Shown here: positions 3,509 to 15,903 of the stretch, one piece after another
Position numbering within the stretch: position 1 is the first letter of the stretch
Layout: every line of letters begins with the position of its first letter
NCBI RefSeq assembly: GCF_900637515.1
Contig: NZ_LR134375.1
Coordinates: 1,261,952-1,325,951 of the forward strand
Length of the DNA: 64,000 nt
Source of the DNA: Veillonella dispar
GTDB taxonomy: Bacteria > Bacillota > Negativicutes > Veillonellales > Veillonellaceae
Direction: 5' to 3'
Translations under genes and position numbers: made by a program
Notes under the pieces: model-generated
The model's input: the letters and a program-made list of their open reading frames with translations, nothing else
Databases searched by the model: none
What the model was told of the DNA's origin: nothing

Positions 3509-4288
3509 TTATCCCAATAATTTGTTGTAGATGTCATAATCTATATCCTTTAATACATTAAATACCACTTGTATTTTACTATTTGTTTCTTTTAAATATG
3601 TTCGTACCGTATCTATGGCAATCTGTGCTGCTTCTTCATTAGGGAATCTAAATTCACCAGTAGAAATACAACAGAATGCAATAGATCGTAAGTTATAAGC
3701 ATTGGCTAACTTTAAACAGGATTGATAGCAAGAAGCTAATTCAATTCTTTCCTTATCTGTTACACTTTCATAAATAATAGGACCTACCGTATGAAGTACA
3801 TGCTTTGCGGGCAAATTATACCCATAGGTCATACGAGCCACACCCGTTTTTTCAGGCATTTCCATATACTCAGTCATTCTAGCACATTCCATGCGAAGCT
3901 CTATACCAGCAAAGGTATGGATTTCATTATCGATACACTTATGATTTGGAGCAAAACATCCGAGTAATTTATTATTGGCTGCATTTACAATAGCATCTAC
4001 AGATAATCGAGTAATATCTCCTTGCCACAAATAAATCTGAGGCTCTCGCTCTTCCATATCACTAATCGTTACGATTCCCTTTTCATGGGCCAATATATTT
4101 AAATATTCAGACTCTATCTTCATCCATTCAAGAGACATGCCACCAGCAGGACGAATATTACATAAAGATCTAAAGAGAGTAAATTGCTCTTCTTCATTCA
4201 TAGGGATCTCTATATGTTCGTTATGTCTCTCATTGTATTCTGCTACTAAGCCTTCAACCAAATAGCGTAACCGTTCTTGCTGTGTCAT
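3509..4288 (-). CDS. Zinc-containing macrodomain protein-ADP-ribose hydrolase
   Basis: A 259-residue protein with an N-terminal helical region (about 1-85) and a C-terminal macrodomain. Signature blocks are GDITRLSVDAIVNAANN near residue 92, LLGCFAPNHKCIDN near 110, and CCISTGEFRFPNEEAA near 205. The Cys-x5-His-x-Cys arrangement in the second block is the zinc site of the Zn-Macro subclass (SauMacro-like), which removes ADP-ribose from modified proteins. In streptococci and staphylococci such proteins sit beside a SirTM sirtuin and a lipoylated GcvH-like protein. Neither partner is adjacent here, so the target in this organism is unknown. Start ATG preceded by AAAAAGGAG. Confidence 0.85.
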   Translation of the reverse strand: MTQQERLRYLVEGLVAEYNERHNEHIEIPMNEEEQFTLFRSLCNIRPAGGMSLEWMKIESEYLNILAHEKGIVTISDMEEREPQIYLWQGDITRLSVDAIVNAANNKLLGCFAPNHKCIDNEIHTFAGIELRMECARMTEYMEMPEKTGVARMTYGYNLPAKHVLHTVGPIIYESVTDKERIELASCYQSCLKLANAYNLRSIAFCCISTGEFRFPNEEAAQIAIDTVRTYLKETNSKIQVVFNVLKDIDYDIYNKLLG

Positions 4289-5187: not shown

Positions 5188-6528
5188 TTACATATATCTT
5201 GATAGCTTTTCAGCAAACAAGCCAATACGCTTATAAGTTAACAGATTACATACTTTTGCTGTAAAGTGTCCAAATCTACGATAAAAGAAATTAAATGTTA
5301 AATATGCTGGTATTGTGCCCATAGTTTTAGGCATGCGACGAAATATATTTTTTATGGAATATAGCTCTTTATAGATCCAAAGATACCCTTTTTCTAATTC
5401 TTCTTTAGACATACCTAACGGTGATACAACTACATGAGACGTATTATATTTTGATAAATCATAATCAAAAATTCTATTTTGCTCTTCCATTCTCTTGTAG
5501 AATTCAGTACCTGGATATGGTGTGACAATATGTGATGTAATCGTATCAATTTTCTGGCTAATAATCCAATTTAACGTATTTTTAAAAGTCTCTGGTGTAT
5601 CTCCATCTAATCCAAATACAAAGCTAGCATTAACCATAATACCACGCTTATGTAATTCGTTAATAAGTCGTTCAAACTCTTCACGATTATTTTGCATTTT
5701 ATGAACACTAGATAAAGATTGAGAACTAATACTTTCAAAACCAATAAATAAACTCTGGCAACCAGTTTCTTTCATTAAATCCATTAATTCAGGGTGTTGC
5801 CCTATTTTCATAGTAACTGCTGCATTCCAGTTTAACTTCAAAGGTTTAATACGTTCTAAAAACTGTTTAGTCCAAGAAATATTGCCAATAAAGTTATCAT
5901 CTATAAACATAATATGTTTTGTACCTAATTTTTTGATATCTTCCAACACATCTTCTATATTGCGATTAATATATTGGTGTGTTCCAGAACTATTATAGCA
6001 AAAATCACATCTATGAGGGCAACTTCGACTAGTAGAAACAACATTGTACCATAAGTAATCGGTCTTATCTATTAAGTCATATGCAGGTGATGCAATATCG
6101 TCTCCAGACTCTAAAGGAGCAGATACGTATTGAGATTGTAATCGACCATGTTTAGCATCTTCTATAATTTGAGGCCATGTATTTTCTGCAAAACCTATAC
6201 AAAGACTATCAAATGCCTCCTTAGGTATGGTATTGGATGCTGTCGTAATATGTATACCACCAGCAATCACCTTAACACCTTTTTCTTTATATATAGATGC
6301 AATTTCAATAGCTCTAGGTAAAATATCTACTGTAACTGCTATCCCTACCAAGTCAGGCACATCATCAAAATCAATAGCTCTAATATTTTCATTTTCAATT
6401 GTGACCTCACACTCATAACGAATAATATTAGCCACCGTTAACAAACCTAAATGTGGTGACATACGTATTTTTAAATCTGTATCCATAGGACGCTTCAACA
6501 TACGCGGCTGAATTAATTTAACTTTCAT
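5188..6528 (-). CDS. B12-binding radical SAM protein
   Basis: About 446 residues. The N-terminal roughly 130 residues form a cobalamin-binding-like domain (PHLGLLTVANI, VGIAVTVDILPRAIEIA, IAGGIHIT). A radical SAM core follows with the cluster motif CPHRCDFCYN near residue 175 and a MFIDDNFIGN strand. The C-terminus (about 360-446) is a helical cap. Members of this type carry out methyl transfers or rearrangements on lipids, hopanoids or peptides, so the substrate cannot be assigned. The ATG at 6528 has AGAGG 7 bases upstream and gives the family-typical MKVKLIQPR start; an ATG seven codons earlier lacks a site. The next gene begins 10 bases after its stop. Confidence 0.82.
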   Translation of the reverse strand: MKVKLIQPRMLKRPMDTDLKIRMSPHLGLLTVANIIRYECEVTIENENIRAIDFDDVPDLVGIAVTVDILPRAIEIASIYKEKGVKVIAGGIHITTASNTIPKEAFDSLCIGFAENTWPQIIEDAKHGRLQSQYVSAPLESGDDIASPAYDLIDKTDYLWYNVVSTSRSCPHRCDFCYNSSGTHQYINRNIEDVLEDIKKLGTKHIMFIDDNFIGNISWTKQFLERIKPLKLNWNAAVTMKIGQHPELMDLMKETGCQSLFIGFESISSQSLSSVHKMQNNREEFERLINELHKRGIMVNASFVFGLDGDTPETFKNTLNWIISQKIDTITSHIVTPYPGTEFYKRMEEQNRIFDYDLSKYNTSHVVVSPLGMSKEELEKGYLWIYKELYSIKNIFRRMPKTMGTIPAYLTFNFFYRRFGHFTAKVCNLLTYKRIGLFAEKLSRYM

Positions 6529-6657: not shown

Positions 6658-7143
6658 TTATATTGTTATATATTCAATAGTTGTACCATGTTCTTCAATT
6701 AAGTTAACTAAGTCTTTTCCCTGTAGCCATACGGTAGCATCATTTTGATTAGGATGTATACCGATTAGATTATCTTTATAATCCGCATCAATATAGTAAT
6801 GAACTTTCCGTGCTTCATCGTGAAGTAAACAGAATGGAGATACGTGACCTGGTTTAATCTTCAAAATATCCCATAGCTCTTCTTCAGAGCCAAAAGAAAT
6901 CTTTTTTAGCTTATGGTCCTTACGAAACTGTTTTAAATCCACACGCTTAGAACCACGAACAGTAATCAAATAATAGTGTTCCCGCTTGTGGTCTCGAATG
7001 AATAAATTTTTCGCATCCCACTCAGGATATGGTAACTCTACATTGGGCTTGTCGTCCATACTAAATAGCGGTGCGTGATCCGTAACTTCAAAATCGATAT
7101 GATGGTCACGTAAACAATCATATACGCCTTGTTTATCTAACAT
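6658..7143 (-). CDS. Prolyl-tRNA deacylase of the YbaK/ProXp family
   Basis: A 161-residue free-standing trans-editing domain that hydrolyses mischarged aminoacyl-tRNA, most likely Ala-tRNA(Pro) by similarity to the PrdX/ProXp-ala branch. Visible features: the VTDHAPLFSMDD segment near residue 20, AKNLFIRDHKREHYYLITV near 45 with the conserved lysine, and FGSEEELWDILKIKPGHVSP near 85, the family's GxxSP-type loop. The length matches stand-alone members. AGAGG lies 7 bases before the ATG. A terminator follows directly. It sits at the edge of the immunity-gene island but looks like an ordinary housekeeping gene. Confidence 0.88.
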   Translation of the reverse strand: MLDKQGVYDCLRDHHIDFEVTDHAPLFSMDDKPNVELPYPEWDAKNLFIRDHKREHYYLITVRGSKRVDLKQFRKDHKLKKISFGSEEELWDILKIKPGHVSPFCLLHDEARKVHYYIDADYKDNLIGIHPNQNDATVWLQGKDLVNLIEEHGTTIEYITI

Positions 7144-7230
7144 GTAATACCTCTAATATATAGTTTACGCTTGGTGAAAGTAATATTTATAGTTATATTA
7201 CTATTATATGACCTAATTAACCCACCAAGT

Positions 7231-8253
7231 CTATTCTCGAACTTTATAGGTACCATCAAATACAAATAATTCAGGATGTTCATGTACGAATGTGTCTTCA
7301 TAGATTCCATCATATTCATATACTACATCATCTTTTTTATCGAGGAAATCGAACAACTCCTCTTCATTCTCCCAGTCTTGTAAAATAGTCCATCGCTCAG
7401 CTCGATCAAATGAAATAGAACCGCCAAAGTAATCGATTACGGATTGTAAATTATCTGCTAATGTATCCATCTTAAAGAGGCGTAATCCAGCAAGAGCATC
7501 CTCCCATACAATGCCTGTAGAGTTATAGAAGAACTGATGATGTCCACCATTATTAACCTCTGCGAAGTACCAGGATATAGCATTGAGATAGCGTTGCTCT
7601 ACAGTAAAAGGTTTTGCAGATTCTAAATAATCATCATATGAGCCATATATATTGATAGTCCAGTACATTGGCTCATTAATGGTCCACATATCGTCTGTAG
7701 CTTGTATCTCTTCAACAGTGATAGTACGATGACGAGGTACACCTTCTCTTTTCTTCTTTTTAGCTGCTACATACTCATTATAGGCAGTACATAAATCAGG
7801 ATAATCAGCTTCACATTTTTCAAAGTCCATTTGCATATAGCACATATCCATGACTTCAAAACAATACGATTTTATATCATCTAGTTCCGATTCCGTAGCT
7901 AACCGTACACCCTGATCCACTAACCTTAGCATCTGTTGCATAGTATCAGATATGTACGCTTCATTATTATCTAAAACAATAGATCCATACGCATAGGCAC
8001 AGCGATAATACCACACCGCATCACGATGCTCTTCATCAATAGCCTCTAATACCTTAATTGCCTCTTTTTCATTGCCATTATTGTTATAAGCTCTACCAAG
8101 CTCACCTAACAGAGGTATAGATAAATTTTCTATGCCCACACTAGTTAACACATCAATAATAGTTTTTACGTTTCCACTATCATTAAGATCTTTAATAGTT
8201 TGTAACTGTTCAGCATCAGACAAAGATAAAAACTGTTCAACACTTAAAGACAT
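7231..8253 (-). CDS. TPR-like module fused to a DUF4375 domain; putative immunity protein
   Basis: About 340 residues. Residues about 5-165 form a helical TPR-like module (LLGELGRAYNNNGNEKEAI, then WYYRCAYAYG). It is clearly homologous to the middle of the 508-residue protein at 9616-11142. The C-terminal part (about 190-330) carries the DUF4375 signature EVNNGGHHQFFYNSTG. DUF4375 and SUKH domains are common in immunity proteins of polymorphic-toxin systems; no toxin is adjacent. Two starts are possible: ATG at 8253 with AGGGG about 11 bases upstream (chosen), or GTG at 8262 too close to the same site. Function is inferred from domain and context only. Confidence 0.72.
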   Translation of the reverse strand: MSLSVEQFLSLSDAEQLQTIKDLNDSGNVKTIIDVLTSVGIENLSIPLLGELGRAYNNNGNEKEAIKVLEAIDEEHRDAVWYYRCAYAYGSIVLDNNEAYISDTMQQMLRLVDQGVRLATESELDDIKSYCFEVMDMCYMQMDFEKCEADYPDLCTAYNEYVAAKKKKREGVPRHRTITVEEIQATDDMWTINEPMYWTINIYGSYDDYLESAKPFTVEQRYLNAISWYFAEVNNGGHHQFFYNSTGIVWEDALAGLRLFKMDTLADNLQSVIDYFGGSISFDRAERWTILQDWENEEELFDFLDKKDDVVYEYDGIYEDTFVHEHPELFVFDGTYKVRE

Positions 8254-8378
8254 ACAATACACGTCCCCTCATAGCACAAATATGTATATGAAATCATCTT
8301 AAGATAATTATAACAAACAACACAACACTATGGGTTACAGATTTTAAAATAATAGTTTACGACAAAACAGCTATTTAA

Positions 8379-8957
8379 CTAGCTACCAAGCCATACCACA
8401 AATACAGGAGTACCTTCATCATCATCGTCGACATCTTCGGCATCGTCTGCTTCAAACTCGTGATCATCATAGGCTAGATTTTCAAAGAATACATGATCAC
8501 CGAGCTCTTTATTGGCCATTAAATTATGTAGCTTGAAAAGAAGCTCTTCAGTAGTAAAATACTGGCCATTATCTGCTTTAAGTCGAGCATAAATTTCTAC
8601 TTGCCACATACCGTCTTCTTTATCGTATTCTTCTAATTCATCGTCTTCGTATAAGTATTCATTAGGGTGAAGCTGACTTTTACTTTCAATCCAAGCTTCG
8701 TAGCTCACCAAAATTTCAGGCTCTACTAATGGCGGTAAATTATCACGATTAACATTATGCTCTTCTAAGCATTTATAAAACTCCTTAAGAAACTCTTCTC
8801 TAGTATAAGTAGTTTTATTGAAAACCCAAGGAATTCCCTTAAATTCATGATAGTAACCTTCATATATTTTATTACCATCTTTATCAGTACCGAGATATTC
8901 AATCTGCTCAGTATTCTCATCCTTGTTAAAAAGTTTTTTTATGGCATCAAAAATCAT
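8379..8957 (-). CDS. Unknown acidic protein; C-terminal module of a shuffled immunity-like family
   Basis: 192 residues, rich in Asp and Glu, no signal peptide or membrane segment. From about residue 45 onward it matches the last roughly 140 residues of the 508-residue protein (9616-11142). Shared blocks include EPEILV.YEAWIES, KEDGMWQVEI, and LLFKLHNLMANKELGDHVFF. The family is not one I recognise. The ATG at 8957 uses AAGGAGG as ribosome site. Those bases correspond to codons in the homologous larger protein, and the upstream 100 bases are a decayed copy of its TPR module (see the remnant at 8958-9060). The gene therefore seems to be a surviving C-terminal fragment that has become a free-standing gene. 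Probably cytoplasmic. Confidence 0.7.
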   Translation of the reverse strand: MIFDAIKKLFNKDENTEQIEYLGTDKDGNKIYEGYYHEFKGIPWVFNKTTYTREEFLKEFYKCLEEHNVNRDNLPPLVEPEILVSYEAWIESKSQLHPNEYLYEDDELEEYDKEDGMWQVEIYARLKADNGQYFTTEELLFKLHNLMANKELGDHVFFENLAYDDHEFEADDAEDVDDDDEGTPVFVVWLGS

Positions 8958-9060
8958 AGGATAATCCTCCTTGTAATCCTTTGAGCTAATAGAGATTAAT
9001 AAATACTCTACTACTTCACAACACTAATCTATTTATCTAAAGTAGCTCTTTTTCCATTTT
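8958..9060 (-). pseudogene. Decayed end of a TPR-like module upstream of the 192-residue protein
   Basis: Read on the minus strand, this stretch aligns base by base with the 508-residue gene around 10220-10315. Shared strings include TTTAGATAAA, TGTGAAGT and TACAAGG.GGATTATCCT. Relative to the intact gene it has lost 5 bases in two places, which shifts the frame and creates stops. The last 20 codons before the ATG at 8957 are still in frame and read CEVVEYLL...SSKDYKEDYP, matching CEVVKYHL...KPKEYKVDYP. This is direct evidence that a larger gene was truncated here. Confidence 0.75.
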
Positions 9061-9072
9061 GATGGCAATATA

Positions 9073-9444
9073 TCAGCCATCAATAGCAAAGTAATTTAAA
9101 TCTTCAAACTCATCGTCCCAAAATTCAAAGCAAAATATATGCGTATAATCAAAGGTTTGTTCACAATAGGTTACAGTACCTAGCTCTGGATCAATTTGAG
9201 GGATACCGATCCGTTCTTTCACATCATCTATAGTAATAGATTCATCATACAGTTCTCGAATGTCTTCAAGCATAAAAGCAGCAATCTTATCAATATTTTT
9301 ATGGTAATTTTCGGCAAGAACTTTTACAGTATCTAAATAATCACCTGATGGTTTCTCATCCCAACAGAATTCTAAGCCTTCATAAAGAAGTCTATAATCA
9401 CAATATCTCTCATTATATACGAGTTCATTTTCACTCATAGGCAT
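9073..9444 (-). CDS. Small DUF2262-like putative immunity protein
   Basis: 123 residues, acidic, cytoplasmic by composition. The helical middle (LAENYHKNIDKIAAFMLEDI), the ITIDDVKERIGI segment and the closing pattern THIFCFEFWDDEFEDLNYFA ending in IDG resemble DUF2262-type proteins, which occur in immunity-gene clusters. The family match is from pattern only and is moderate. The ATG at 9444 follows AAGGAG by about 5 bases; a second ATG two codons later is possible. A truncated copy of its 3' end is found at 11691-11738. Its stop lies 12 bases before the remnant TPR sequence, placing the truncation junction just after this gene. Confidence 0.6.
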   Translation of the reverse strand: MPMSENELVYNERYCDYRLLYEGLEFCWDEKPSGDYLDTVKVLAENYHKNIDKIAAFMLEDIRELYDESITIDDVKERIGIPQIDPELGTVTYCEQTFDYTHIFCFEFWDDEFEDLNYFAIDG

Positions 9445-9565
9445 TCTCTCTCCTTATTAATGCTTCGATTTCAAAATTACTAAAATTCTTTCTCAATATT
9501 TTACACGAAGCCCATATAAAATAACGTAGCCCAAAGCACAGAAGTATATACTTTCTAAGTATATA

Positions 9566-9594
9566 GTAAAAGCCCCTCGCATAAGCGAAGGGCT
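9566..9594 (-). terminator. Terminator of the SUKH-TPR gene; copy 1 of a repeated terminator
   Basis: A 10-bp stem (9571-9580 with 9585-9594) is followed by TTTTACTATA on the minus strand. The same hairpin with flanking GTATA.AGTAAAAGCCC sequence recurs at 13341-13368 and 14581-14613. Confidence 0.8.
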
Positions 9595-9615
9595 AATCTA
9601 TTATATATCTATTAG

Positions 9616-11142
9616 TTAGCTACCACAGCATGTATAGAATACAGGTATACCATCTTCGTTATCTATAAGCCCGTAACCTTCACATTCATGGCCTTCGTAT
9701 TCAATACCTTCAAAGAATACGTGATCACCTAGTTCTTTATTAGCCATTAGATTATGCAATTTAAAGAGCAACTCTTCTCTTGTAAAATATGTACCATTAT
9801 CAGCTACAAGATGAGCCATGATTTCTACTTGCCACATACCATCTTCTTTATCCTCTTCAAATAGTTCTTCATCGGTTACACGTTCATTATCAAAAAGTTG
9901 GTCTGTACTTTCAATCCAAGCTTCATAGGTTACTAGAATTTCCGGTTCTTCTAATCTATCGTCGTCTGCTTCATCATCTACATATTTCTCTACTTCTTTA
10001 TGGTATTCTTTAGAAAACTCTTCTCTGCTATATGTTTGCTTATTAAATACCCAATGTACTACATCATATGTAGGATACTTATCTTCTTCGCATTCATTAA
10101 TATCTCCAGTAACTTTACCTTCTGTAGTAACTTTATCTTCTATAGTATCTTTGCTATTTTTCTTATCAAAGACATTCTTAATAGTTTCATATACCAAAGG
10201 ATAATCCACCTTGTACTCTTTTGGCTTAATTTTAAATAGGTGATATTTTACCACTTCACAGCACCAAACAAGCTGTTTATCTAAATGGGCTTCTTTCGTC
10301 ATTTTTATGCCTGTTTCTATTAATTGTAATGCCTTCTGTACATGTTCAGATTCATAGCTTTTACCATACCCTAGCATCCCATGAGCATAGCCACAACGAT
10401 AATACCAAGACCAATCGCGATGTGCCTCATCGATACGTTCAAATAAATCAATAGCCTCTGCTGCGCGGCCACTATTGTTATACATACGTCCTAAGGAGCT
10501 TAACAATATAGGCGACAAATTATCAATGCCTATGTTAGTTAATAACTCCATCGCACGCTTGAAATCGATGCCCTCTTGTTCATTAAGGAGCTTAACCTTT
10601 TCTGTATCACTTAATTCTTGAAACTCTTCATCCGTAATTTCTTCTATATTGAAATATAAGTTCTTAATAAAGTCACCAAAATTATCTGCTAACGGCGTAA
10701 TTGAATAATCACATTCTTGGTCTACACGGACTACCTTAGGTTCACCGGTTGGACCGCACTCACGATAATCGAGGAAAACCATGTCGTGACCGCCGGAAAT
10801 TGTATCGGCTACAACGATACCAATAGGGGGATATTTTACTTTGGAAATCCAAAATTCATTACCCATCTCACCTAAAAGAGAGTATTTTTTATCTCTATCG
10901 ATGCCATATATTCCTGTTATATATACACAATCGTCATCATCGTTAATAAAACAATTCTTATTTACTACACCACCATTATGGTTTTTAAGTAGCTCTATAT
11001 ATGCTGTAGGCAATGTATAGCCTAGTTTAGCTTCAGCATTCTTAATATCCTCATCGGTAACCTCTCTACCTATATAGGACTCAAATGCATAATCGGTGTC
11101 TTTCCAAAATCCAGTCCAATTGAAATCTTTTAGATGACTCAT
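9616..11142 (-). CDS. Three-module protein: SUKH (Smi1/Knr4) domain, TPR-like module, unknown acidic C-terminal module
   Basis: 508 residues. Residues about 1-160 are a SUKH domain, with the classic pattern IKNAEAKLGYTLPTAYIELL, then KNHNGGVV near residue 40 and AD...GGHDMVFLDY near 110. SUKH proteins are common immunity factors against polymorphic toxins. Residues about 170-330 are a TPR-like helical module homologous to the N-terminus of the DUF4375 protein (LGRMYNNSGRAAEAIDLFERI, then WSWYYRCGYAHG). Residues about 365-508 match the 192-residue protein at 8379-8957 and end in a Cys-Cys-Gly-Ser tail. It is thus a natural fusion of domains found separately next door. ATG preceded by AGGAGAG. 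The toxin it might neutralise is not in this window. Confidence 0.75.
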   Translation of the reverse strand: MSHLKDFNWTGFWKDTDYAFESYIGREVTDEDIKNAEAKLGYTLPTAYIELLKNHNGGVVNKNCFINDDDDCVYITGIYGIDRDKKYSLLGEMGNEFWISKVKYPPIGIVVADTISGGHDMVFLDYRECGPTGEPKVVRVDQECDYSITPLADNFGDFIKNLYFNIEEITDEEFQELSDTEKVKLLNEQEGIDFKRAMELLTNIGIDNLSPILLSSLGRMYNNSGRAAEAIDLFERIDEAHRDWSWYYRCGYAHGMLGYGKSYESEHVQKALQLIETGIKMTKEAHLDKQLVWCCEVVKYHLFKIKPKEYKVDYPLVYETIKNVFDKKNSKDTIEDKVTTEGKVTGDINECEEDKYPTYDVVHWVFNKQTYSREEFSKEYHKEVEKYVDDEADDDRLEEPEILVTYEAWIESTDQLFDNERVTDEELFEEDKEDGMWQVEIMAHLVADNGTYFTREELLFKLHNLMANKELGDHVFFEGIEYEGHECEGYGLIDNEDGIPVFYTCCGS

Positions 11143-11172
11143 AATACTCTCTCCTAAACAAATAGATATAAT

Positions 11173-11643
11173 CTAACCACATTTTATTTGATCAATGGAA
11201 TATTTTTTTATTAAAGCTTTCACCTCACGCCGTATCAAAATGGTATCTATAATATAGGAAAAAATGATATAAGGACATACATTTATAATCCCGATAGGGG
11301 CCAATATAAGGGCTGCCCACAATAAATTCAGTGAATACGCATACCACTTAAAATCAATGGTATTTAAAAATGGTATAACATAGTCAATAACTCTTACTTC
11401 CCATTGCATTAATGGGTTCAATTCCTCACTTGTGCCTAATAGCCAAGTGAAAGTAAGGGCAAATATCAAACCATATACTATGCCAACAGGAATCAATATC
11501 TTCGCTCTCTTTTTTAACAGATTACGGCAAATCTCATCTTCTTCCTCTGGTGTTACATCGTATACCATATTACATTCTATCTGAATCCGTCTAAATCGAT
11601 AGCGAATATACTTATACAAAAGGTTATTCGGTGAATATAACAT
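11173..11643 (-). CDS. Small membrane protein of unknown function
   Basis: 156 residues with at least two hydrophobic membrane spans: about 50-70 (ILIPVGIVYGLIFALTFTWL) and about 105-135 (LNLLWAALILAPIGIINVCP, then YIIFSYIID). A basic N-terminus precedes them and a charged C-terminal helix follows. No recognisable family. GGAG lies 7 bases before the ATG. It sits between immunity-like genes, and small membrane proteins in such clusters are often immunity proteins against membrane-active toxins; that role is a guess from context. Confidence 0.55.
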   Translation of the reverse strand: MLYSPNNLLYKYIRYRFRRIQIECNMVYDVTPEEEDEICRNLLKKRAKILIPVGIVYGLIFALTFTWLLGTSEELNPLMQWEVRVIDYVIPFLNTIDFKWYAYSLNLLWAALILAPIGIINVCPYIIFSYIIDTILIRREVKALIKKYSIDQIKCG

Positions 11644-11690
11644 AATGGGCTCCGTATACTATTTGTAGTAACTTAATTTTAGAAAATATA

Positions 11691-11738
11691 TCATCCATCT
11701 ATGGCAAAGTAATGTAAATCTTTGAATTCATTATCCAA
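11691..11738 (-). pseudogene. Remnant of the 3' end of a DUF2262-like gene
   Basis: The minus strand reads LDNEFKDLHYFAIDG and a stop, matching DDEFEDLNYFAIDG and stop at the end of the gene at 9073-9444. DNA identity across the matching stretch is high and continues past the stop (ATATCA...). It lies 15 bases beyond the stop of the unrelated gene at 11753, in a different frame. It is therefore a leftover fragment of a second gene copy. Confidence 0.7.
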
Positions 11739-11752
11739 AATATATTGCAGGA

Positions 11753-12172
11753 TCAGTCATCGTTTGTCCCCTTTACATAGCTTTCCATCTTCGGTCTTAA
11801 ATCTAACACGATTTCCCAACTATCTAATGTAGGAACCTTACGATGTGCAATAAAATCTTCTATTATCTGTAATACCTCTTGATGGCCCAGCTCATTCTTA
11901 CCATATATGATAGCGCCGCGGTCGCCATCATTAGTTACACTAAGCTCTATATGTAATAAATCGGTATCTTGATCACTACAAACCTGTACAAAGTTATATA
12001 GTTTATTATCTATGGAGATTGCCTTTGATGGAGAAATAACTACAAAGTCTTGCTCTTGGTCTTCAATAGCATACAGATTTTGTTCAACTTCATTCAGTGT
12101 AATACCTTCATATTTATAGGTGCCTACATCAATGGACCAATCCGTATATGTTTTCTCAAATGTATCTGTCAT
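11753..12172 (-). CDS. Small acidic protein of unknown function in the immunity-like island
   Basis: 139 residues, acidic, without signal peptide or membrane segments. No family recognised. Strand-rich segments such as DFVVISPSKAISIDNKLYNF and LLHIELSVTNDGDRGAIIYG suggest a compact alpha/beta fold. A good AGGAGAGG site lies before the ATG. It follows the ankyrin gene by 28 bases, so the two are probably cotranscribed. Position among SUKH, DUF4375 and ankyrin genes suggests an immunity role, but nothing in the protein itself shows it. Confidence 0.5.
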   Translation of the reverse strand: MTDTFEKTYTDWSIDVGTYKYEGITLNEVEQNLYAIEDQEQDFVVISPSKAISIDNKLYNFVQVCSDQDTDLLHIELSVTNDGDRGAIIYGKNELGHQEVLQIIEDFIAHRKVPTLDSWEIVLDLRPKMESYVKGTNDD

Positions 12173-12200
12173 ATGTATTGCCTCTCCTTTACGATATACA

Positions 12201-13262
12201 TTAAAATAAGGTTTCTAATTGACCTGCCATATCGGACATAAACTCATCAAATTTACAAAGCTCTCGTAGTTCTTGATGTTCTACATCATAACAAGAAATC
12301 TTTTTAGTTTTAGGGTCCCATACAATTTGCCACTCGTTATACTCGCCCAGTTCTTTAGATAAACGCAATAGATTACGACGACCTAATTTAAATGGAATCG
12401 TATCAATAAGTGGGAAGAACTCTATAGATATAAAATCGGAGTCTGGCAATTCAAAGTAAAGTTGTTCGCCCGCTAAAAAATTCACTAATGCTTTTGGTAA
12501 TTTAAATGGCTTTAACTGATCCATTTTATTTTGTATATCATGAAACTCAGCAGGCTCTAAGGATTTAAAATACTCTGCCATTTCCATATCGCCTTTTTCA
12601 ATAGCAATGCTATAGGCGCGCATACCATCCTTTTCCGTGATGGTCACGTCAGCGCCATGTTCTACCAAGTATTTACACATCTTTAAATCTACATACCGTG
12701 CTGCTACGCACAATGGCGTTGGCTTAAAGGGATATACAGAATCAGGCTTATTGTAGTTAATATCTACACCATTATGAATAAAGAAATCTAGAACCTCATA
12801 ATTTCTATCTGTAATGGCATTTCTGAAAGCTTTACCGCCATACTTCTGTACCGTATGGCCTAAGTCATGAATAATCTGTAAATGATTATATTTCTTGCCA
12901 TATAAGGCAGCTCGAAAGGCATCTACTTTTACACGGTTCAAGGCGTGAAAATTAGCACCATGAGTCACAACATAGTCGATAATCTCTTTATTACCATACC
13001 GTACAGCTAATAAGAAACTTGGATTTTCTTCATCATTAAGATTAGCGCCATTCTCCACTAACCATTGAATACTTGGCAAGCAACACATAACAAGAGCTAA
13101 TTCTAAAGGTGTATGCTCACTATACTCACCAATTTCTATAGGTATATTAATATCCCAACCATTGGCTAATGCATTTTCTAAAGCGCTAATATTTCCTGTT
13201 ACAATATCTGTTACGATATGAGGCACAGATTCAAATGTACCTAAATCTTTTAACTGTATCAT
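12201..13262 (-). CDS. Ankyrin-repeat protein with an unassigned C-terminal domain
   Basis: 353 residues. About residues 25-235 contain ankyrin repeats, visible as TPLELALVMCCLPSIQWLVE, PSFLLAVRYGNKEIIDYVVT, TPLCVAARYVDLKMCKYLVE and YSIAIEKGDMEMAEYF. Such repeats mediate protein binding. The last roughly 100 residues (FKLPKALVNFLAGEQLYFEL ... WQIVWDPKTKKISCYD) are a separate domain, which faintly recalls SUKH-type C-terminal strands but is not a secure match. GGGAG lies before the ATG. Ankyrin proteins are frequent in bacterial immunity arrays; binding a toxin is the likely role, inferred from context. Confidence 0.72.
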   Translation of the reverse strand: MIQLKDLGTFESVPHIVTDIVTGNISALENALANGWDINIPIEIGEYSEHTPLELALVMCCLPSIQWLVENGANLNDEENPSFLLAVRYGNKEIIDYVVTHGANFHALNRVKVDAFRAALYGKKYNHLQIIHDLGHTVQKYGGKAFRNAITDRNYEVLDFFIHNGVDINYNKPDSVYPFKPTPLCVAARYVDLKMCKYLVEHGADVTITEKDGMRAYSIAIEKGDMEMAEYFKSLEPAEFHDIQNKMDQLKPFKLPKALVNFLAGEQLYFELPDSDFISIEFFPLIDTIPFKLGRRNLLRLSKELGEYNEWQIVWDPKTKKISCYDVEHQELRELCKFDEFMSDMAGQLETLF

Positions 13263-13310
13263 GTCACTCTCCCATGAACTATATATTTAAAATGATTATC
13301 ACTAATTACA

Positions 13311-13350
13311 TTATATTACATTTATAAGTATGAGTGTATAGTAAAAGCCC
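13311..13350. repeat. 40-bp direct repeat, copy A
   Basis: Matches 14551-14590 at 39 of 40 positions; the single difference is at 13339. The repeat runs into the 5' part of the repeated terminator. The two copies bracket the genes at 13375-14509. Confidence 0.85.
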
Positions 13351-13368
13351 TCCGCATAGCGAAGGGCT
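13341..13368 (-). terminator. Terminator of the PNPOx-like gene; copy 2 of the repeated terminator
   Basis: A 10-bp stem (13346-13355 with 13359-13368) with a 3-base loop is followed by TTTTACTATA on the minus strand. Confidence 0.8.
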
Positions 13369-13374
13369 AATCTA

Positions 13375-13854
13375 TTATTTCTCTTGTACTTGTTTACCAC
13401 TCATATGTTCAATGGTAATTTCAAACATTTGTGTTGCTCGCCCATTACGAGCAATTTGTTCATCAGCTAACGCTTCATCAGGATAATATTTCATAGCAAA
13501 TTCTTTTAATCGATCTATAGATTCTGAACCGGCCTCTAACAAACGACATCTTCCAAATACGACTACACTTTGCACATACGGCGCCCATGGTTCAGATTTA
13601 TCAATACGCTCATCACCATATACGGTAAAACATACCTTATCTGAAGTTTTCAATGCCTCTACCTTATGACCAGCTTTAGCTCCATGAAAATAAATTTTCT
13701 TCTTATCACAATCATAAAAATAATTAATAGGAATAGCATAAGGGTAACCATTATCGCCGTTCATGGCTAAAATACCTCGACGATTAGATTGTAATAAAGC
13801 TTCTGCAGCACTATGGTCTATTTCATTTATCTTTTTACGAATAGATTTAAACAT
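13375..13854 (-). CDS. Pyridoxamine 5'-phosphate oxidase-like flavin-binding protein (NimA-like)
   Basis: 159 residues with the split-barrel FMN-binding fold. The pattern GILAMNGDNGYPYAIPINYF near residue 27, IYFHGAKAGHKVEAL near 55 and VCFTVYGDE near 75 is that of NimA/YhbP-type proteins. These reduce nitroimidazoles or bind flavin or heme; the natural substrate is generally unknown. A TAGGAGA site lies before the ATG. It starts 16 bases after the candidate nuclease gene on the same strand, so the two form a two-gene unit, bracketed by 40-bp direct repeats. A metabolic gene inside an immunity-like island is unexpected and may have arrived with its neighbour. Confidence 0.8.
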   Translation of the reverse strand: MFKSIRKKINEIDHSAAEALLQSNRRGILAMNGDNGYPYAIPINYFYDCDKKKIYFHGAKAGHKVEALKTSDKVCFTVYGDERIDKSEPWAPYVQSVVVFGRCRLLEAGSESIDRLKEFAMKYYPDEALADEQIARNGRATQMFEITIEHMSGKQVQEK

Positions 13855-13870
13855 AATCTATCTCCTAATT

Positions 13871-14509
13871 TTATTTACTTATCCTATTTACAAGATACAT
13901 AAAAGTACCACTATTAGTATCATCAACTTTAGAATATTCTTTCCAATTTATAGGATATATCCCAGTTAATACTATAGGTGCTTCCATTCCACGCATTGTT
14001 CCTTTTCCCGTATTAGAGGACCAATTCATACATCCAGTTTTTATAGAACCCTCCTCAATAGAGAATTCAGCGTATGTACAACTTACTTTTGTCGGAGGCT
14101 TTAGATAAGATATCTCACTAGTTATCTTAATCGTATAACCTTCAATAAAGTTATTACTCTTATCCCTAAATTCCTCTATACGCATTATATCTTTTAAGTA
14201 GTTATAGCAGCCTTGATCCTTAGCACCTTGCTCCTTCAACACATACACTTCCCCATTTATAGTTTTAATGCATTTTTTTGTCGTATATTTAAGCTCAATA
14301 GGAATCCATTTACCATCTAATATAACAAGAATATCAAGATGTAAATTAGAATTAAATTCAGGTACAAACTCTAGTCTAATATCACAATTTGGATATTGCT
14401 CTTTAATCATCCAGGCTAAGCTAAACTGAAAGTCTGCTTCCGAATGAAATATTGGTCGCCAAATACTCAATTGGTGCATTACCTCATAAATATCTAAAAT
14501 TAATCCCAT
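13871..14509 (-). CDS. Candidate PD-(D/E)XK-superfamily nuclease
   Basis: 212 residues from the ATG at 14509, which has GAGG about 9 bases upstream. A longer frame to 14665 would run through a terminator copy and has no ribosome site. The N-terminus has FHSEADFQFSLAWMIKEQYP, a helix with the glutamate typical of restriction-like folds. A beta-hairpin core then reads HLDILVILDGKWIPIELKY: Asp, then Glu-x-Lys, spaced as in the catalytic D...ExK motif. The rest shows no known domain. The call is a motif reading, not a family match. The gene lies between a HEPN candidate and a flavoprotein gene. A defence or mobile-element role is plausible; DNA cleavage is not shown. Confidence 0.55.
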   Translation of the reverse strand: MGLILDIYEVMHQLSIWRPIFHSEADFQFSLAWMIKEQYPNCDIRLEFVPEFNSNLHLDILVILDGKWIPIELKYTTKKCIKTINGEVYVLKEQGAKDQGCYNYLKDIMRIEEFRDKSNNFIEGYTIKITSEISYLKPPTKVSCTYAEFSIEEGSIKTGCMNWSSNTGKGTMRGMEAPIVLTGIYPINWKEYSKVDDTNSGTFMYLVNRISK

Positions 14510-14550
14510 AACAAATACCTCATCGAATACAATACATATATCTATTTTAA

Positions 14551-14590
14551 TTATATTACATTTATAAGTATGAGTGTACAGTAAAAGCCC
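14551..14590. repeat. 40-bp direct repeat, copy B
   Basis: Same orientation as 13311-13350, with one mismatch at 14579. It lies between the candidate nuclease and HEPN genes. Confidence 0.85.
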
Positions 14591-14613
14591 TTTGCATAAG
14601 CGAAGGGCTTTTA
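14581..14613 (-). terminator. Terminator of the HEPN-like gene; copy 3 of the repeated terminator
   Basis: The stem is 14586-14595 with 14600-14609, with one mismatch, extended by AAAA/TTTT pairs. TTTTACTGTAC follows on the minus strand. Confidence 0.75.
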
Positions 14614-14645
14614 GTCTAGACAACAAAATATCATTATTGATTATT

Positions 14646-15071
14646 TTAATATTCACGATATTCATGCAATAAGTAAGATAATTTATTATTCAACTCTATA
14701 AAATTTATCAAATAATGCTCATCTATATAAAATTGTTGATTGGTAATTCTATCTTTTGTAGCTAAAATTTGCTCATTTTTAGATGAAGTGATTCTAAAAC
14801 TATGAATGATACGATTGCGCCTATAAACAATATCTGAAAATAACTCAGCTATTTCTCCACCAGCATTTTTCGTAATTGTTTGAGCAATAGGCGATTTAAG
14901 TTGGCCTAATTCTTTATCAATCAAGTCATACCAAGAATAATCACTATCTGTATTAATAATGTTCTCTATAATAAAACCATTATTAGAGATAAATACTGAA
15001 ATAGCCATCCCCAACAAGTAAACATATTCGTCCTTAGGTAAAGATATCCTAGCAAGTGATCGAAGCTCCAT
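14646..15071 (-). CDS. Candidate HEPN-domain protein
   Basis: 141 residues, largely helical. Near residue 84 it has IVYRRNRIIHSFRI, which contains the R-N-x-x-x-H signature of HEPN RNases (the catalytic Arg-x4-His). A preceding helix ends in Asp and a later helix follows (YLINFIELNNKLSYLLHEYR). Length and helix order fit a single HEPN domain. HEPN proteins act as toxins or RNases in toxin-antitoxin, abortive-infection and CRISPR-linked systems. No MNT-type nucleotidyltransferase partner is adjacent; neighbours are a zinc-finger-like protein upstream and a candidate nuclease downstream. AAAGGAG precedes the ATG. The assignment rests on one motif plus helix pattern. Confidence 0.5.
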   Translation of the reverse strand: MELRSLARISLPKDEYVYLLGMAISVFISNNGFIIENIINTDSDYSWYDLIDKELGQLKSPIAQTITKNAGGEIAELFSDIVYRRNRIIHSFRITSSKNEQILATKDRITNQQFYIDEHYLINFIELNNKLSYLLHEYREY

Positions 15072-15147
15072 TGTCTTACTCCTTTAAAAGATACGGCTTA
15101 TATTATTTATCCACCAAAAAAATAATCTCATAATAGTTTATAAAATA

Positions 15148-15903
15148 TCAATTTAAAATAGATATTTGTCTATCACTATATATTTTTGTTTCAAAGTAAC
15201 CATAGCCTAAATTTGAAGGTTTCCAGTCTCCAGCAACTATAATAATTTTATCTTTATTTTCAAATACCATATTTCTTATCTTGTTATAAAGGTTTATATC
15301 AGAAATAGATAATATAAAATGATAATTAGGATTTGCTACAGGAGCTACTAAATAAATCTCATTTTTATCACTATCGTAAAAGCGACCTTTTACACAAGAC
15401 TCAATTATTTTAAAGCCGAAAACACCTTTAGGATACCAGTATGCAGTTCTATCATCTAAAATCATTCTTCCAATTTTCTCATTTCCATATGAGTAATTAG
15501 GATGGAATCGTTTACATATAGAATATATCTGCTTTATTGTACTGAGTGTGAGATTATAATGTTCACCATATGAAGATTTTTTAGAATTCCCACTTGAATT
15601 TTTCGGATTCTTCTTAACTAAAAGATTTTGCATTGCATTTTCAAAAGAAAAATTTAACTCATTAAATTTATTGTCATCAAAAGCGACTGAACTATTTGCA
15701 TAAGGACAATTAGCAATATGTTTATACGCAGATTTAGTTGCTCTAAAATATGCTTTCCGAGAGCCATCACCAGCACATACAAATAATTTACTATTACATA
15801 GCGGATATGGACAATAAAAAGACTTATCCCTATTTTCTTCAAGAGCCTCACTTGCTAGTATTATATCTCGTCTTTCTTTATCTCTATATGCATGGTTAGC
15901 CAA
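15148..15903 (-). CDS. Unknown protein with N-terminal Cys/His zinc-finger-like region
   Basis: 251 residues starting at a TTG codon (15903) with GGAG 8 bases upstream. The N-terminus (about 1-70) has FYCPYPLCNSKLFVC then, about 30 residues later, HIANCPY. This gives a Cys-x4-Cys ... His-x3-Cys set that could bind zinc and recalls the N-terminal region of CoiA-like competence proteins, though the match is weak. The middle is Lys/Ser/Asn-rich (LLVKKNPKNSSGNSKKSS). The C-terminal part is alpha/beta without a known motif. A 12-codon open frame with a strong ribosome site sits just upstream (15908-15946). It may form an operon with the HEPN candidate, 76 bases downstream. Confidence 0.5.
   Translation of the reverse strand: MANHAYRDKERRDIILASEALEENRDKSFYCPYPLCNSKLFVCAGDGSRKAYFRATKSAYKHIANCPYANSSVAFDDNKFNELNFSFENAMQNLLVKKNPKNSSGNSKKSSYGEHYNLTLSTIKQIYSICKRFHPNYSYGNEKIGRMILDDRTAYWYPKGVFGFKIIESCVKGRFYDSDKNEIYLVAPVANPNYHFILSISDINLYNKIRNMVFENKDKIIIVAGDWKPSNLGYGYFETKIYSDRQISILN

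Follow-up and report, generated by a model that had tools for sequence, protein, structure and literature searches.

The minus-strand open reading frame SHORT (8379..8957) very probably is a functional gene that was made once, by partial duplication of an operon with internal deletions, and is translated from the ATG at 8957 (probability of about 0.8). It lies in the window, a stretch of 64,000 nucleotides from the complete 2.12 Mb genome of Veillonella dispar. SHORT is a free-standing copy, 192 amino acids in length, of the C-terminal module of LONG together with its last TPR helix and linker. LONG (9616..11142, minus strand; 508 amino acids) has the parent architecture, a SUKH domain (PF09346, E 9.7e-22) followed by a TPR region and the module. 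An earlier note on this DNA gave both reading frames as they are found here, and explained SHORT as a gene born when a longer gene was truncated in place. Its view that a SUKH-TPR-module gene was the ancestor of the module gene is borne out by homology to LONG upstream of SHORT; the route was probably a different one. In a well-preserved state, the locus documents the release of a domain gene by partial duplication of its operon; the gene inherited its start signal from codons. The class of mechanism is already known; this example and the prediction of an internal start in LONG are new.

Gene order of the locus

SHORT, LONG, x123, y139 and mem156 are working gene labels assigned in the analysis, and all features described here lie on the minus strand. 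Read along that strand, the locus begins with a terminator, followed by an ankyrin gene (12201-13262), y139 (11753-12172), a relic of x123 copy A (about 11690..11755), mem156 (11173-11643) and LONG. Past LONG, it continues with another terminator copy (9562..9603), x123 copy B (a 123-aa gene, 9073..9444), a decayed coding remnant (8958..9072), SHORT, the TPR-DMP19 gene (7231..8262; PF14300, E 4.8e-20) and a YbaK-like gene (6658-7143). The SUKH, ankyrin and DMP19-type genes are thus encoded on one strand, and the other members of the locus match no family. Besides PF09346, family searches with LONG gave weak TPR matches in its TPR part. The TPR parts of TPR-DMP19 and LONG are 31-41% identical, and the C-terminal domain of TPR-DMP19 is DMP19-like; the two proteins are alike in the adaptor and different in the C-terminal module. 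An Rfam search of 7000-13500 gave no match, and a consensus promoter scan found fewer sites than in shuffled sequences.

The coding remnant upstream of SHORT

The 115 bases 5' of the ATG (8958-9072) correspond to the last part of LONG's TPR region, at about codons 280-315, in a broken frame. For 8961-9072 the alignment score is 79, compared with a mean of 32.4 (sd 4.4) and a maximum of 50 among 500 dinucleotide shuffles. Over the final 19 codons before the ATG the alignment is gapless, with VVEYLLISISSKDYKEDYP in the remnant and VVKYHLFKIKPKEYKVDYP in LONG. The earlier note had described this codon-by-codon correspondence and named a comparison with shuffled sequence as its check, and the correspondence withstands that check. 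When possible sources of the remnant were compared in one test, the scores were 85 for LONG, 36 for TPR-DMP19 and 26 for the ankyrin gene. TPR-DMP19 is ruled out as the source.

The Shine-Dalgarno sequence of SHORT, AAGGAGG (8966..8972), stands 8 bases before the ATG and has a duplex energy of about -11.2. In the remnant, it corresponds to the AAG GAG G of KDYKEDYP, that is, to Lys-Glu codons. That reading, also taken from the earlier note, is correct for the remnant but not for LONG of the window genome, which has AAG GTG (Lys-Val) at the homologous place; Glu is retained at this site by LONG in four other species.

The remnant is kept in three species (that of the window, V. infantium and V. 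rogosae), and its lesions were read from alignments. A CAG to TAG stop with a 1-base insertion after LDK is common to all three remnants, as is a further 1-base gap farther upstream. In addition, the window alone has a 5-base deletion, and V. rogosae alone a 1-base deletion. The frame had been said to be destroyed by two indels totalling 5 bases. The lesions are more numerous than that. The upstream indels are later than the loss of the 5' part, or accompanied it, and are not what created the gene.

Copied flanks and the proposed origin

What stands before SHORT repeats what stands before LONG. x123B duplicates the gene found before mem156-LONG in other species, so that x123B-remnant-SHORT has the order of x123A-mem156-LONG minus mem156. 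Intact copy A is found in that position in five other species, and x123B is 58-62% identical to copy A in five species; the window keeps only the two ends of copy A. In this relic, the start and the end of the gene are joined by a large internal deletion. The stop of every x123 copy, A and B, is followed by TGATATATT / TAATATATT. Both copies share the same bases past the stop (T[GA]ATATATT) and then diverge at once, copy A continuing to mem156 and copy B jumping into LONG at codon ~280. In the window this junction lies at 9066..9075, where the stop codon and TATATT of the shared flank are followed by LONG sequence. The flank common to the x123 copies is only 9 bases long.

The terminator before x123B, a hairpin, matches the one at 13337-13378, which precedes the ankyrin gene, with 93% identity over 42-43 bases. 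It has three copies genome-wide, all in the locus, the third at 14550-14609, and species that lack SHORT have no such terminator after LONG. Each copy, with adjoining sequence, precedes a variable gene block. A HEPN-like gene and two unassigned genes lie upstream of the ankyrin operon at 13871-15903. They have the look of variable cargo: most were not found in the sampled regions of other species, G007 having an intact z264.

Since the remnant starts at the copied flank of a copied x123, behind a copied terminator, we propose partial operon duplication with internal deletions as the origin of SHORT. A partial copy of the operon (terminator/promoter, ankyrin gene, y139, x123, mem156, LONG) would have been inserted between LONG and TPR-DMP19 before the divergence of several Veillonella species. 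Internal deletions in the copied block, one of ankyrin-y139 and one of mem156 with the 5' part of LONG, would then have followed, the latter bringing codon ~280 of the copied LONG directly behind the copied x123 and its 3' flank. The leftover TPR coding sequence would have decayed into a leader. SHORT would be translated from the ATG at 8957 by means of an AAGGAGG that was once LONG coding sequence, and in some species still is, and transcription probably starts in the leader or in the copied promoter region. This order of duplication and deletions is our inference. The copied block was found to contain no trace of ankyrin, y139 or mem156, so that a rearrangement that was smaller, or went in several steps, would fit equally well. 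In the model of LONG (pLDDT 53, used for the TPR helices only), the last TPR helix spans 315-329; SHORT starts at its first residue, and a linker of low confidence follows the helix.

The copied block has continued to change. x123B is absent in T11011-6 and G007, which share one deletion junction; x123B and most of the remnant are gone, and the AAGGAGG is spared. The x123B of V. infantium is broken by an internal deletion (L025:5516-5660), and the SHORT behind it stays intact.

Distribution, age and selection

Our sample consisted of 14 Veillonella species genomes, one genome per species. SHORT is present in five of them, always between LONG and TPR-DMP19, and four species have LONG without SHORT. 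The five orthologues are 88-97% identical to one another and 54-55% identical to the C-terminus of LONG. They form one clade (support 100/99). SHORT is therefore the product of one ancient event common to five Veillonella species and is not particular to the window genome. In the best tree, SHORT lies outside all LONG genes (LONG clade 79/53), but a grouping of SHORT with LONG of G008 is not rejected (p 0.28). The tree does not settle the position of SHORT relative to the LONG genes or point to one donor LONG. Trees of the flanking genes disagree with one another. The locus thus recombines, and the distribution of SHORT cannot be taken as a direct record of how the species split; the cassette may have spread by recombination.

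SHORT is under purifying selection. All five genes have 192 codons and zero indels, with pairwise dN/dS of 0.05-0.26 at dS 0.2-0.37. Between the window and V. infantium, the differences in SHORT fall on the three codon positions as 2, 2 and 26; in the 57 bases before SHORT, they fall as 2, 3 and 4. In the remnant, 7-13% of sites differ, irrespective of codon position, and indels occur as well; this is close to the third positions of SHORT, of which 13.5-14.6% differ. The Shine-Dalgarno stretch AAGGAGGATTAT is unchanged in 5/5 SHORT loci. The proline codon right after it is invariant in LONG and has been lost before the ATG in three species. Given the absence of codon bias in the remnant, the third-position bias of SHORT and the loss of this proline, coding constraint begins at the ATG. 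This boundary lends comparative support to the predicted start at 8957, and upstream of it the Shine-Dalgarno stretch alone is conserved. The earlier note held that the C-terminal module is now expressed alone; that it has become a gene of its own agrees with this selection and with constraint that sets in at the ATG.

A possible start signal inside LONG

The start codon of SHORT is homologous to codon 316 of LONG (10195..10197; TTG in the window genome). This codon is ATG, GTG or TTG in 9/9 LONG genes, one per species, although the residue it encodes is M, V or L. GTG makes up 12% of the Val codons and TTG 16% of the Leu codons in LONG, so both are minor codons. Among columns of mixed M/V/L/I in LONG, 1/17 has NTG in all species. 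The same test in 30 genes of the region gave 9/262, most of the other all-NTG columns being Met-rich, and by this base rate p is about 0.03.

A usable Shine-Dalgarno sequence precedes codon 316 in 8/9 LONG genes as well. Its energy is -5.6 to -11.2 in 7/8 full-length LONG genes, while the genes' own starts have -6.5 to -8.1; that of T11011-6 is weak (-3.1). With SKV38 judged by codons, it is strong in four LONG genes, fair in four and weak in one (n=9). AAGGAGG-N8-GTG stands inside LONG of G007, V. atypica, V. tobetsuensis and SKV38. The earlier note had the ribosome-binding site of SHORT made from former codons. Its place in former codons is confirmed; the signal itself is older than SHORT and was not made by a truncation, being found inside LONG of these four species. 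In four LONG genes, the Glu codon that completes AAGGAGG (Glu 312) has been replaced by one for Val, Ala or Met. Synonymous constraint at LONG 308-316 is moderate (rank 50 of 497 windows). The homologues in Mogibacterium and E. infirmum show no such start site at the homologous place. LONG may already make the C-terminal module from this putative internal start. In SKV38, LONG is split into frames of 203 and 301 aa by a frameshift in the TPR region (L032 reverse, about 5700-5727), and the part with the internal start and the module stays open.

Alternative explanations

If SHORT had arisen by truncation in place, a complete second LONG would once have stood here and its 5' part would have decayed by indels and stops, as the broken frame and the stop upstream of the ATG might suggest. 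However, the homology ends right behind the x123B stop and its flank, and there is no trace of the SUKH domain or of earlier TPR sequence. The order of the flanking copies indicates a deletion junction, with the remnant beginning where a copied flank ends behind a copied terminator. The earlier note had also pointed to related genomes as the place to look for an intact SUKH-TPR-module gene at this site; none was found in the related species genomes examined, and no second full-length LONG in any of the 14. We regard truncation in place as improbable. Decay is certainly at work among the neighbours, as seen in x123A of the window, x123B of V. infantium and LONG of SKV38, and SHORT might be one more decaying pseudogene fragment with a frame open by chance. 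For the five species this is already refuted by the constant length, the third-position bias and the dN/dS values, and we give it practically no credence. Hardly more credible is an ancestral free-standing module, from which LONG arose by fusion of SUKH-TPR to it. The module is known in other architectures and the best tree places SHORT outside LONG; against this, LONG TPR sequence is present 5' of the SHORT start, SUKH-TPR-module proteins of 508-509 aa occur outside the genus, and a free-standing module without a remnant was not found.

A different matter is the possibility that LONG is a gene within a gene, in which a start at codon 316 would yield the module as a second protein and SHORT would be the duplicated inner gene. 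The NTG codon in 9/9 genes and an internal Shine-Dalgarno about as strong as LONG's own start in 8/9 speak for it, and the separately translated C-terminal domains of Rpn proteins provide a precedent (PMC10327210). The changed Glu codon in four LONG genes, the moderate synonymous constraint, the missing site in Mogibacterium and E. infirmum and the base rate of NTG conservation speak against it. On balance we think it possible but unlikely. The internal Shine-Dalgarno is strong in 3/4 species without SHORT and in 1/5 with SHORT, a difference that is not significant (one-sided p about 0.17, hand count). A fuller version, in which the inner gene was copied out as SHORT and the internal Shine-Dalgarno of LONG then weakened in most SHORT carriers, is a little more doubtful still. 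An inner gene in LONG and the origin of SHORT by partial duplication are compatible, and both can be true. Whether an internal start in a multidomain gene precedes the separate gene can be tested directly at this locus.

The module and its possible function

SHORT has no match in Pfam, NCBIfam or PADLOC, and a profile search against PDB gave none either. A SUKH domain was not detected in SHORT with these three family collections, while LONG carries PF09346. The AlphaFold2 model of SHORT has a mean pLDDT of 63, with a better predicted core at about residues 50-160. Fold searches with this model gave a best Foldseek E of 0.41 and a best VIA Z of 2.7, and no fold was assigned. No relatives were found in viral contigs.

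The module recurs in other settings. SUKH-TPR-module proteins of 508-509 aa are also found in Mogibacterium pumilum and Eubacterium infirmum. In G028 and G031, the module is fused behind a domain resembling y139, with E 1e-9 and 3e-5 for the y139 portion and, in G028, E 1e-26 for the module; the fusion is a functional link between the two. Two Veillonella genomes and related Negativicutes have the module next to a LemA-like gene, at the C-terminus of a protein that probably contains two membrane stretches. The loci with other module architectures are L060, L061, L068, L033 and L034. SHORT thus represents a domain not yet described, which is found in no fewer than three architectures and has no match in Pfam, NCBIfam, PADLOC or solved structures.

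The gene content of the locus is like that of SUKH polyimmunity loci (Zhang et al. 2012, PMC3482391). Such loci likewise have co-oriented SUKH, ankyrin-repeat and small unassigned genes, vary in gene content between close species and contain duplicated members. In contrast, LONG combines SUKH with TPR and the undescribed module, known immunity domains are absent from SHORT, and the likeness is one of gene content. In the rAID orphan immunity arrays, one immunity protein has two domains, and its C-terminal SUKH domain suffices for protection by itself (PMC12247911). These arrays also contain SUKH genes, and a detached domain can work alone there; however, they belong to Bacteroidales and come with a recombinase and a known effector, and the part set free in Veillonella is not SUKH. 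Because of the SUKH, ankyrin and array context (PMC3482391) and the protection by a single SUKH domain (PMC12247911), we tentatively consider SHORT most likely to be an immunity-type protein in a locus resembling polyimmunity loci, with a role beside the LONG module or as its replacement. It could be a small cytoplasmic protein-binding module.

RpnL/RpnS provide another comparison, as the C-terminal domain has its own start inside the long frame (PMC10327210). A similar internal start pattern is visible in LONG and is used by SHORT. Unlike the Rpn proteins, LONG has no known nuclease or toxin part, its internal start is predicted from sequence, and in Veillonella there is also a separate gene for the inner part.

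In gene fission or partial duplication, a domain of a multidomain protein becomes a separate gene. SHORT shows what is expected of a released domain gene: homology 5' of its start, purifying selection and duplicated flanks, namely the x123 copy with its 3' flank and the terminator. What sets the Veillonella locus apart is that the coding remnant, shared frame lesions and duplicated flanks can still be seen. The release can be read in several stages in different species, from the parent gene and the decayed codons to the copied flanks and the conserved start signal.

Elsewhere in the window, the gene at 3509-4288 reads like one for a macrodomain protein, as suggested by VDAIVNAANNKLLG.
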